Shown: in pieces, positions 9,787 through 29,493 of the stretch | How the letters are laid out: each line of letters opens with the position of its first letter | How positions within the stretch are numbered: position 1 is the stretch's first letter | NCBI RefSeq assembly: GCF_902498785.1 | Contig: NZ_LR701494.1 | Span: 186,001-250,000, forward strand | Length of the DNA stretch: 64,000 nucleotides | Direction of reading: 5' to 3' | Origin: Sphingomonas sp. EC-HK361 | GTDB taxonomy: Bacteria; Pseudomonadota; Alphaproteobacteria; Sphingomonadales; Sphingomonadaceae | The notes under the pieces: model-generated | What the model was told of the DNA's origin: nothing | Seen by the model: only the letters and a program-made list of their open reading frames with translations | Databases searched by the model: none | Program-made: the position numbers and the translations under genes

Positions 9787-10573
9787 CGCCGAGGCATTTC
9801 CACGGATCGTTGAACACCAGCATCGCGTCCGCCCGGGCGAGCGCGACGAGGGTGAGGCGGTGCGCACGGGCGTGATCGATCGCCATCGTGGTCGGCGCGG
9901 AGATGCCGACGACCATCGGCGCGCCGGCGACCAGCGCCTTGTCGACCATCTCGAAGCTGACCCGCGAGGTGAGCAGGATGAAGCCGTCCACGCCCCGCCC
10001 GTCCACGGCGAGCGCACCGATGAGCTTGTCGAGCGCGTTGTGGCGGCCGACATCCTCCCGAACCATGACGATCGCGCCCGTGCGGTCGCAGAGCGCAGCC
10101 GCGTGGACTGCGCCTGTGAGCCGATTGAGCGGTTGATGGTCGCGGATCGCTGCGATGGCGGCAAACAGGGCAGTGCGTTGAATTCGCGGCTGCGGCGCAA
10201 GTGCGGCGACGGGGCGGTCGATCTGTTCCAGACCCGAGATACCACAGAGACCGCACCCGGTGTCGCTCGTGCGGTGCCGCACCCTGTCCGTGATCCGGGC
10301 GCGGCAGCGCGGCGCGAGTGCGACACGGACGATCCAGCCGCGATCGGTTTCGAACGGCTCGATCGCGCGGATATCGTCGATGGTGTCGGCCAGGCGCTCG
10401 GTGAGCATGAAGCCACGCGCGAAGTCCGCCAATTGCGTGGGGGTCATCATCATGACCGCATAACCGAAACCGTCTACCTCGATCGCGACGGGCGTTTCGA
10501 CCGCGACGTCGCGAGCGTGCCTCTCAAGCCCATGCGGCGTCAGGGCGCACGGAGCCTCGCTTCGGCTACTCAC
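9743..10573 (-). CDS. fdhD: Formate dehydrogenase accessory sulfurtransferase FdhD
   Basis: 276 residues from GTG 10573, which overlaps the mobA stop in a GTGA junction. FdhD passes sulfur from a desulfurase to the molybdenum cofactor of formate dehydrogenase; the Cys pair is present in SDTGCGLCGIS, and MVREDVGRHNALDKLIG is the conserved cofactor-binding block. The true fold seems to end near DAMLVFNDPW. The remaining residues (EEGLEPPTPGL) are the antisense of tRNA-Met and probably add nothing. No formate dehydrogenase subunit lies in the window. Confidence 0.93.
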   Translation of the reverse strand: MSSRSEAPCALTPHGLERHARDVAVETPVAIEVDGFGYAVMMMTPTQLADFARGFMLTERLADTIDDIRAIEPFETDRGWIVRVALAPRCRARITDRVRHRTSDTGCGLCGISGLEQIDRPVAALAPQPRIQRTALFAAIAAIRDHQPLNRLTGAVHAAALCDRTGAIVMVREDVGRHNALDKLIGALAVDGRGVDGFILLTSRVSFEMVDKALVAGAPMVVGISAPTTMAIDHARAHRLTLVALARADAMLVFNDPWKCLGVVAEEGLEPPTPGL

Positions 10574-11106
10574 CGTGCTTCCAGCCGAGCGAGATCGTCG
10601 GGCGTATTGAGATTGGCGATGCCGGGCCAGGCGATGCCGACGGCGCCGATCGAAGAGGCCCAGCCGCGCACCGAACGCTTCGGATCGCTGGCGGCATAGG
10701 CAAGAGCCTCGCCGGCGCTCCTGACGGGCCAAAAGCCGATGACCGGATTGTCGGTGCACCAGGCCGCGTCTTCGGCGAGCAAACGCTTCAGGAGAGCCGG
10801 TGGAACGACAGGCGTATCGCAACCCATGGTGAGCACGCCGGCATAATCCATGTCGCGGGCGAAGCCGAGAGAGCCTGCAATACCGCCCATGGGGCCTAGG
10901 CCGGGGCCTGGCCTGTCCGGGACGGACTGGAGCCCCACCCATTTCCGACCCACGATGGCGACGTCGTCCACCAGCGGTGCAAGTGTCGCAACCGCATGAT
11001 CGATCAACGCACGTCCAGCGAAGAGCGCCGCGCCCTTGTCACTACCGAAACGTCGTGCCGCGCCGCCGGCGATGATCGCACCCAGCACTCTGGGCGCGGG
11101 CACCAT
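10570..11106 (-). CDS. mobA: Molybdenum cofactor guanylyltransferase MobA
   Basis: 178 residues from ATG 11106, one base past the rimO stop; an upstream ATG at 11145 would overlap rimO by 38 bases. The nucleotide-binding loop IIAGGAARRFGSDKGAAL, then GPMGGI and MGCDTPVV match the MobA/NTP-transferase fold. It attaches GMP to Mo-molybdopterin to make the bis-MGD cofactor, which fits with fdhD immediately downstream. The operon order is rimO-mobA-fdhD. Confidence 0.92.
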   Translation of the reverse strand: MVPAPRVLGAIIAGGAARRFGSDKGAALFAGRALIDHAVATLAPLVDDVAIVGRKWVGLQSVPDRPGPGLGPMGGIAGSLGFARDMDYAGVLTMGCDTPVVPPALLKRLLAEDAAWCTDNPVIGFWPVRSAGEALAYAASDPKRSVRGWASSIGAVGIAWPGIANLNTPDDLARLEAR

Positions 11107-24611: not shown

Positions 24612-25877
24612 ATGGCCGACGCCAACGCTAGCCTTGCGCCAAAACCTGAAGGGGCGACGGGAGTCCTCGTCCTGGCGAGCGGCGAGGTGGTGTGGGGCTG
24701 CGGTTTTGGCGCGGAAGGGCAGGCGGTTGGCGAGGTGTGTTTCCACACCGCGATGACCGGCTATCAGGAGATCATGACCGACCCGTCCTTCGCCGGGCAG
24801 ATCATCACCTTCACCTTCCCGCACATCGGCAATGTCGGCGCGAACCCTGATGACGTGGAGGCGGATATGCCCCACGCACTCGGAATGATCGTGCGCGAGG
24901 ACGTGACCGCACCGTCGAACTTCCGCGCGGTCGAGCGTCTAGACGGCTGGATGAAGCGGCATGCGCGGATCGGCCTGTCCGGCATCGACACGCGGGCGCT
25001 GACGCGGCGGATCAGAACGGGCGGCGCGCCGAACGGGGTGATCGCACATGCGCCGGATGGGGTGTTCGACGTCGATGCGCTGCTGGCGATGGCGCGCGCG
25101 TGGCCTGGGCTGGAGGGGAAGGATCTCGCCAAGGCCGTGACACGCGAGACGCATGGCGGCTGGGATGGCGGCGTCTGGCGGCTGGGGTTCGGGTATGGCG
25201 ACGGGTTCTCGACCGACGCTTCTCGGCTTCGCTCGAAGCTGCTCGAACCGAACGGAACCCCTAATGCCCCGTTCGTTTCGAGCGAAGGGTCGAGCCTGTC
25301 GAGAACCGAAGTCGAGAAGCCCCACATCGTCGCCATCGATTACGGCAGCAAACACAACATCTTCCGCAACCTCGTTCACGCCGGCGCGAAAGTCTCCGTC
25401 GTCCCCGCAGCCGCGACCTTCGACGAGATCATGGCGCTCGCCCCCGACGGCATCTTCCTGTCGAACGGCCCCGGCGACCCCGCGGCGACGGGCGAGTATG
25501 CCGTCCCGGTGATCCGGCAGCTGCTGGAAGCCGGCAAGCCGCTGTTCGGCATCTGCCTCGGCCACCAGCTCCTCGCGCTCGCGGTGGGGGCTAAGACGAC
25601 CAAGATGTTCCAGGGCCATCGCGGCGCCAATCATCCGGTCAAGCGCCTCTCGGACGGCGCGGTCGAGATCACGAGTATGAACCACGGCTTCGCAGTAGAG
25701 CGCGACAGCCTGCCGGCGAATGCGCGCGAAACGCATGTGTCGCTGTTCGACGGCTCGAACGCGGGGCTGGAACTGACGGATCGGCCGGCGTTCAGCGTGC
25801 AGTATCATCCGGAGGCAAGCCCCGGGCCGCAGGACAGCTTCTATTTGTTCGAGCGGTTCGTGGGGTCGTTGCGGTGA
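24612..25877 (+). CDS. carA: Carbamoyl-phosphate synthase small subunit CarA, with linker insertion
   Basis: 421 residues from ATG 24612. The N-terminal domain has MTGYQEIMTDPSFAGQIITF and GLSGIDTRALTRRIR. The class I glutamine amidotransferase domain follows: nucleophile Cys in LFGICLGHQLLALA, His/Glu in VQYHPEASPGP. It releases ammonia from glutamine for CarB. Residues about 198-232 between the domains are extra compared with E. coli CarA and are encoded by a nested palindrome (25204-25307). Its stop overlaps the start of the small gene downstream (GTGA). Confidence 0.96.
   Translation: MADANASLAPKPEGATGVLVLASGEVVWGCGFGAEGQAVGEVCFHTAMTGYQEIMTDPSFAGQIITFTFPHIGNVGANPDDVEADMPHALGMIVREDVTAPSNFRAVERLDGWMKRHARIGLSGIDTRALTRRIRTGGAPNGVIAHAPDGVFDVDALLAMARAWPGLEGKDLAKAVTRETHGGWDGGVWRLGFGYGDGFSTDASRLRSKLLEPNGTPNAPFVSSEGSSLSRTEVEKPHIVAIDYGSKHNIFRNLVHAGAKVSVVPAAATFDEIMALAPDGIFLSNGPGDPAATGEYAVPVIRQLLEAGKPLFGICLGHQLLALAVGAKTTKMFQGHRGANHPVKRLSDGAVEITSMNHGFAVERDSLPANARETHVSLFDGSNAGLELTDRPAFSVQYHPEASPGPQDSFYLFERFVGSLR
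25204..25307. repeat. Nested palindromic element inside carA
   Basis: Three nested inverted pairs: 10 bp (GGTTCTCGAC 25204-25213 with 25298-25307), 11 bp (CTTCGCTCGAA 25227-25237 with 25277-25287) and 7 bp (CGAACGG 25249-25255 with 25269-25275). TTTCGAGCGAAG and CCGTTCG resemble a repeat I remember as frequent between sphingomonad genes. It falls exactly in the linker between the two CarA domains and keeps the frame open. A related 21-bp piece is in carB at 27867-27887. Confidence 0.8.

Positions 25878-26136: not shown

Positions 26137-26137
<1 letters not shown>
25874..26137 (+). CDS. Small hypothetical gene between carA and carB
   Basis: 87 residues from GTG 25874, overlapping the carA stop (GTGA); its TAA shares a base with the carB ATG (TAATG). 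The start [22 protein letters not shown] is hydrophobic, like a signal peptide or anchor. The rest is basic ([20 protein letters not shown]) and ends [10 protein letters not shown]. Base composition is visibly AT-richer and codon use looser than in the flanking genes, which suggests acquisition. The perfect junctions argue that it is translated. I recognise no family. Confidence 0.6.

Positions 26138-29493
<3,356 letters not shown>

Follow-up and report, generated by a model that had tools for sequence, protein, structure and literature searches.

A palindromic repeat read in frame within the interdomain linker of CarA, a candidate landing site for unrelated palindrome families in Sphingomonadales

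Results

A nested palindrome lies in frame between the two domains of CarA

The window (the whole 64-kb stretch of DNA that was analysed) carries the genes for both subunits of carbamoyl-phosphate synthase, and an in-frame insert is present in each. The relevant features are the following.

24612..25877, + strand: carA, carbamoyl-phosphate synthase small subunit, 421 aa, an open frame with the insert included
24666..25043, + strand: CPSase_sm_chain, the N-terminal domain of CarA, residues 19-144 (Pfam PF00988, E 8.3e-48)
25203..25304, + strand: CarA residues 198-231, which in an alignment stand opposite two residues of E. coli CarA
25204..25255, + strand: left arm of a palindromic dimer, long-arm variant of family A, in '-' orientation, with the 3' end CGAACGG
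25256..25268, + strand: 13-nt spacer separating the palindrome arms
25269..25320, + strand: right palindrome arm, in '+' orientation, starting with CCGTTCGTTTCGAGCGAAG
25332..25862, + strand: GATase class I domain of CarA, residues 241-417 (Pfam PF00117, E 1.2e-49)
26137..29493, + strand: carB, carbamoyl-phosphate synthase large subunit, 1118 aa (NCBIfam)
27871..27894, + strand: one family-A half-site of 24 bp, inserted in frame where the CarB domains meet and encoding the 8 aa STSLETGF

Both arginine synthesis and pyrimidine synthesis need CarA, and the carA gene of the window still looks intact with a palindrome in its reading frame, as judged from the open frame, the score against the CarA model and the predicted fold. 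The protein passes the NCBIfam equivalog TIGR01368 (414.7 bits vs a cut-off of 307.35) and has the expected domain order, and the best Foldseek match of its structural model is E. coli CarA (1jdb_C, TM 0.85/0.95). When the protein is aligned to E. coli CarA 1t36_B, query residue 197 corresponds to residue 183 and query residue 232 to residue 186, such that 34 residues (198-231) located between the two domains face only two in the E. coli enzyme. The AlphaFold2 model, which was computed from a 41-sequence alignment, has a mean pLDDT of 86, with values below 50 at residues 199-211 and 215-232 and a good predicted fold on either side. By this prediction, the enzyme is normal apart from the insert, which forms a disordered linker.

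At the DNA level, the in-frame insertion between the CarA domains is a nested inverted repeat that spans positions 25204-25320. The outer inverted pair (25204-25213/25298-25307, 10 nt) and a second pair (25227-25237/25277-25287, 11 nt) each match at 100%, and an inner pair of 15 nt (25241-25255/25269-25283) matches at 93%. Further pairing over 14 nt (25218-25231/25307-25320, 93%) indicates that the element extends slightly past position 25307. A sequence-only reading of this DNA had described nested pairs of 10, 11 and 7 bp placed between the CarA domains, along with about 35 additional residues. The two longer pairs, the position and the approximate residue count all agree with our results, and the 7-bp pair is presumably contained within the 15-nt pair. 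The RNA corresponding to positions 25200-25325 is predicted to fold at -62.4 kcal/mol, compared with a mean of -41.5 kcal/mol (sd 3.85) for shuffled sequences (z -5.4), and none of 200 dinucleotide shuffles folds as well. A search of Rfam with positions 25000-25500 yielded no match with E up to 1. By eye, the window arms carry neither a CGTC nor a GTAG tag, and some copies in relatives have CGTC at that place (e.g. in genome G031). The stem of the CGTC superfamily (8-9 bp with an AT start and a 4-5-nt loop) also was not found in the window arms by eye.

The inserted palindrome belongs to a multicopy family

Judged from its sequence, the insert in the window is a REP-type palindromic repeat dimer that belongs to a multicopy family of Sphingomonadales palindromes. 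With up to two mismatches allowed, 51 of 80 related genomes contain the family-A half-site CGTTCGTNTCGAGCGAAGTCGAGA; the number per genome ranges from 0 to 185, and the reversed pattern, which served as a control, was matched in none of the 80. The sequence-only reading had likened the insert to a sphingomonad intergenic repeat of the CCGTTCGTTTCGAGCG type, and this likeness is borne out by the multicopy occurrence of CGTTCGTNTCGAGCGAAGTCGAGA in related genomes. The same copies, observed in the genomes of relatives, speak against an element that is found nowhere else in the genome, which that reading had entertained as the contrary outcome.

Among 40 places fetched from genomes G046, G034 and G027, 33 of the 46 family-A groups are inverted pairs. 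We also considered whether the long arms are peculiar to the window and rejected this view: the long-arm form was matched in 20 of 295 Sphingomonas genomes with up to 21 copies, and G288 has 12 long-arm copies of which one is inside CarA, where the same long form is legible (locus L094). Within the window itself, family A is confined to CarA and CarB, besides one weak match with four mismatches.

Four palindrome families occupy the CarA linker

We assembled 80 loci found with CarA and 100 further regions. With the window counted and with six duplicates, eight outgroup loci and L179 removed, the set comprises 166 distinct CarA genes. The interdomain linker measures 45-98 aa in 84 of these genes and 31-44 aa in the remaining 82. 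The proportion of 84/166 is not a prevalence because the sample is enriched for inserts: 75 of the regions (L089-L163) were single-alignment matches to the inserted CarA of the window, and L164-L188 were split matches, none of which has an insert among those read. Four palindrome families were distinguished, and a DNA motif of one of them is present in 82 of the 84 long linkers and in none of the 82 short linkers (31-44 aa); the long linkers of L115 and L118 were assigned to family A by peptide only. Family A, the window type, accounts for 27 rows (frameshifted L163 included), family B (TCGACA-GCTCAG type) for 11, family C (CCCCTCCC...GGGAGGGG type) for 44 and family D (CGTC-1-like) for two.

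For the genus, a lower bound is given by at least 81 of 288 genomes with CarA that have an insert, a tally made up of 67 fetched loci (without L163) and 14 genomes behind L001-L048. In an even draw of the order, CarA was found in 289 of 296 genomes, and an insert-free query gave split alignments in 31 of them. Twelve of the 31 genomes were already known to be insert-bearing. The other 19 lie outside the 295 genus genomes, and a palindrome occupies the linker in 16 of these (judged by eye in L237 and L253); the rest are L243, which has a long linker with no recognised family, L235, which has a short linker, and L247, which is unreadable. A palindrome is therefore present in the CarA linker of at least 28 of the 289 genomes in the order sample.

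A tree of CarA and CarB with the linkers cut out (FastTree with local supports only and a midpoint root; 165 rows, L163 dropped) has the linker types interleaved and requires at least 40 changes among five states, and at least 25 changes if only insert and none are distinguished. Some close pairs have different families, namely L111 (A) vs L145 (C) and L140 (A) vs L159 (C), and close relatives that differ in family or presence are also seen in L093 vs L168/L169 and L090 vs L170. The linker sequence differs among related CarA proteins, and the prospect that all of them share it, which the sequence-only reading had held against itself, is not what we find. That reading had proposed a mobile palindrome turned into a CarA linker. 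This proposal is supported and widened; it does not hold as a single event, given the many species and four palindrome families. Our results support the view that the CarA linker is a probable recurrent landing site for unrelated palindrome families, with the window as one example and not a one-off.

Several individual linkers have features of their own. By eye, L145, L159 and L138 seem to have a second palindrome nested in the first, which suggests that inserts may grow through further capture. The longest CarA linker seen (98 aa) is that of L048, where positions 10523-10780 hold three CGTC-1-like REP units that give SSQRKLGSQ-type repeats. In L163 and L179, CarA is split over two frames, which reflects either an error in the sequence or genuine damage to the gene. 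L128, L137, L141, L150, L052, L047 and L158 have linkers of intermediate length (42-44 aa) that lack a recognised motif and are possibly decayed inserts; the 53-aa linker of L243 may likewise have decayed or may belong to a further repeat family.

Genomes tend to hold more copies of the family that occupies their CarA

Median copy numbers in genomes with a CarA insert vs insert-free genomes are 16 vs 0 for family A and 76 vs 4 for family B, and for family C the medians above the reversed-pattern control are 33 vs 2. Comparison of own-family copies with all other genomes of the 80 gave one-sided p values of 8.6e-6 (A), 0.0014 (B) and 1.3e-6 (C), which ignore relatedness and were obtained with hand-picked genomes, 15 insert-free ones included. 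Genomes tend to hold more copies of whichever family occupies their CarA, and the tie between insert type and copy number is a loose one. For example, the type-A genomes G003 and G153 have only 0 and 1 family-A half-sites at the threshold used, and the type-B genome G124 has two family-B half-sites. Family-A half-sites number 126 in G046, whose CarA insert is of type D, and 185 in G260 (type C), and insert-free G287 has 111 family-B half-sites.

In-frame palindromes occur elsewhere, and in the data examined CarA is where they recur

Among 73 loci, 16 have a CarA insertion that carries a motif and is 18 aa or longer, whereas no such insertion was found in 13 other ORF groups around carA in the same loci, some of which look like spurious antisense ORFs. 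Insertions without a motif are present in three of the 13 control groups (four cases). This control counts a motif only together with an insertion of that length because a short motif alone has chance matches elsewhere (up to 19/63 loci in one group).

The carB gene of the window carries an exact match to the family-A 18-mer pattern on the - strand (27868-27885). Its 24-bp half-repeat is flanked by the near-direct repeats AGCTTC/GGCTTC, where the two CarB halves join. The CarB junction is 27 aa long in the window and 19-21 aa long in 165 of 166 other measured loci (6 duplicates), with 13 aa in one outgroup locus. Thus, the window has the sole CarB junction insertion among 167 measured loci (7 more were unmeasurable). 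Tolerance alone leaves unexplained why filling is frequent in CarA vs a single case at the CarB junction.

Of the 46 sampled family-A groups, four are in frame in NCBIfam-recognised genes, and all four belong to G046, where 24 groups were sampled. The host genes encode a biotin carboxylase-type subunit, valyl-tRNA synthetase (ValS), UvrA and the helicase HrpB, and the dimers are found in regions L192, L195, L202 and L206. The in-gene test relied on GC3 excess and is crude: nine of the 46 groups had a spanning ORF over the threshold, and five of these nine were put to NCBIfam. NCBIfam gave no match (E up to 1e-20) for a fifth candidate ORF of G046, in L200, and by the same ORF test none of the 22 groups in G034 and G027 was placed in a recognised gene. 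The four in-frame cases indicate that in-frame capture is not restricted to CarA. Within the data examined, CarA is the place of recurrence across species.

Reading frame and nucleotide conservation of the inserts

The frame in which the arms are read is nearly constant for two of the families. In family A, the '-' arm keeps its frame in 25 of 27 rows and the '+' arm in all 23 scored rows (4 unscored); in family B, the corresponding counts are 10 of 11 and 11 of 11. Both family-A arms are open in all three frames, with a net charge of -1 per arm in the frame used, and the inserted CarA peptides are acidic on average. This constrained frame and the acidic peptides are the features expected to favour a functional linker that is specific to the lineage and merely repeat-like. 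Such a linker is contradicted by the copy counts, as the insert DNA is multicopy in related genomes, and by eye its sequence and length vary freely among species, with several reading frames in use for family C in CarA. We consider this explanation extremely unlikely.

One family-C insert is common to 11 species, and among these the linker has a pN/pS of 0.49 vs 0.04 and 0.12 for the domains, which is in line with weak protein-level constraint. Variable third codon positions number 3 of 24 in the arms; in the domains they number 153 of 332 (Fisher p 0.001). This low variation suggests that something also acts on the nucleotides, which could be either selection on a hairpin or gene conversion.

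If a hairpin were kept, then a stem in the mRNA or DNA where the domains meet would slow translation or tune carA expression. Because any palindrome family would suffice for this purpose, unrelated families would converge on one site, and the four families indeed have little in common except palindromy. The conserved third positions of the arms are in accord with this proposal, as is the stronger predicted folding of inserted linkers (mean -0.60 vs -0.37 kcal/mol per nt for insert-free linkers), a difference that is only indicative since the lengths differ. However, no compensatory change that would support an RNA structure was found in 55 pairs over 11 sequences, in which 13 cells are broken and 6 are one-sided, 82 of the 166 sampled CarA genes manage without an insert, and the Rfam search described above returned no match. 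Moreover, gene conversion with genomic copies would conserve the arms too; one arm block changes four times among 12 rows, in a weakly supported region of the tree. On balance, retention of the palindrome for its hairpin seems distinctly unlikely. We likewise judge it unlikely, although slightly less so, that the Sphingomonadales CarA linker is selected to hold a palindrome, with a carA hairpin that aids expression or co-translational folding. If true, selfish DNA would have been domesticated convergently at a single site.

Orientation of the inserts and their possible route into carA

Within the genus Sphingomonas, the family A and B pairs of CarA linkers have the internal order (-,+) in 27 of 27 scorable loci, and L091 has an additional (-,+) pair in the open frame beyond the linker. 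Elsewhere in the same loci this order is seen in 13 of 27 pairs (10 of 24 once repeated places are removed), and at sampled places in three genomes it is seen in 1 of 33 pairs. A universal orientation rule was rejected, as by eye both orders are present in CarA outside the 295 genus genomes. The uniform order and nearly constant frame of the A and B inserts within the genus, together with the block switches in one arm, are consistent with one ancient palindromic insertion whose sequence gene conversion with repeat copies in the genome has since overwritten and which was lost several times. Against such a history stand the two internal orders just noted, the families C and D, which by eye are unlike A or B, and the insert-free species, which are spread over many regions of the tree and also occupy deep positions (midpoint root). 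We therefore find a single ancient insertion fairly unlikely.

In 16 pairs compared by eye (14 filled vs empty), no clean target-site duplication was seen, and the inserts seem to replace the native CarA linker. A Y1_Tnp (PF01797) gene scores over the cut-off in 3 of 19 relatives' genomes. A site-specific transposase, RAYT-like Y1 or other, that recognises the DNA of the carA linker would be compatible with a landing zone only ~10 codons wide, and both of the 19 genomes that have ~150 family-A half-sites do have a Y1_Tnp gene. In contrast, the small number of genomes with such a gene, its absence over the cut-off in G008 despite 74 half-sites, the lack of a target duplication and the use of the same place by unrelated palindrome families all argue against this route, which we regard as very unlikely.

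Discussion

The explanation that we favour, with a probability of about 0.72, is that the CarA linker, which connects the CPSase domain to the glutaminase domain, was entered by a REP-type dimer that is translated with CarA and has been kept as tolerated filler. The palindrome, its in-frame position, its multicopy family (in relatives) and the recurrence of four families at the CarA linker are directly supported; how capture works is the part that we infer. The linker is probably flexible and, at roughly 10 codons, would tolerate many additional residues. The arms of the palindromes are open frames, and the frame used would give an acidic, disordered peptide rich in Ser, Gly, Pro and Glu. Palindromes of a family common in the genome may land in the linker or be copied into it, where they would replace the native linker and stay as filler. 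Later, the captured palindrome might be swapped for another family or lost.

The sequence-only reading had regarded an in-frame palindrome in an essential enzyme as unusual, and this part of its claim needs correction, since in-frame palindromes are already in print (excerpts of PMC3733652 and PMC10969869). Rickettsia palindromic elements, about 150 bp long, are described in frame in unrelated metabolic genes (excerpt of PMC10969869). As in the parts of PMC10969869 and PMC3733652 that concern these elements, the CarA inserts are in-frame palindromic repeats of several families that are translated as extra peptide. Unlike the Rickettsia elements, with which they are compared by description only, they reside in Sphingomonadales and belong to different families at one CarA linker in many species.

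We take 'S. alaskensis' and 'E. lithoralis' to be relatives of the sphingomonads. Some REPs are reported in frame in genes, also in these two organisms, in the excerpted part of PMC3733652. There, the GTAG/CGTC REPs are described as multicopy short palindromes that often form inverted dimers 20-100 bp apart and whose CGTC/GTAG tag varies, and different REPs are noted at about the same recB site in X. campestris vs X. oryzae (PMC3733652, in part). This recB case of two Xanthomonas species is the nearest precedent for convergence. By eye, the type-D inserts (L048 and L099, and L253 outside the genus) fit CGTC-1 as outlined in the excerpt of PMC3733652, having CGTC, an 8-bp stem with an AT start and a 4-nt loop. 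The window copy differs from the CGTC/GTAG REPs of that excerpt (PMC3733652) in that, by eye, it has neither the tag nor the AT-starting stem. Some family-B copies carry CGTC at the hairpin base but lack the AT-starting stem of CGTC REPs. Neither carA nor carbamoyl occurs in the main text of PMC3733652, the part of that source to which this statement applies.

Among the matches listed, we found no literature on palindromes at the CarA linker. REPINs are inverted pairs of short palindromes that are dispersed through a genome and mobilised by RAYT transposases. The palindromes described here are likewise dispersed inverted pairs, as in the REPIN and RAYT systems covered by the excerpt of PMC3116915. 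Unlike REPINs, they are accompanied by a Y1 transposase gene in only 3 of 19 genomes, and their mobilisation is putative. The RU elements of enterobacteria contain open frames and are found inside genes (excerpt of PMC2759123). They resemble the CarA inserts as small mobile repeats read as protein and differ from them in the element and the hosts, and no recurrent single site is described in the excerpted part (PMC2759123). In the mitochondria of Nematomorpha, coding palindromes have arms that encode conserved parts of proteins (excerpt of PMC6649704). These too are long inverted repeats within coding sequence (PMC6649704, in part), whereas the arms in CarA encode a variable linker.

In-frame palindromes are known, and what appears to be new is the repeated convergence of unrelated families on one short CarA linker. 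Earlier in-frame selfish palindromes are scattered cases, and the CarA linker, part of a central metabolic gene, can be traced across a bacterial order. Close pairs of CarA genes that hold none or different palindromes are natural, replicated experiments on the conversion of selfish DNA into protein. The CarA series bears on how palindromes are exchanged and on the object of selection, which may be the peptide, the hairpin or neither of them. It also carries a warning, in that variation in CarA length among Sphingomonadales reflects the capture of repeats.
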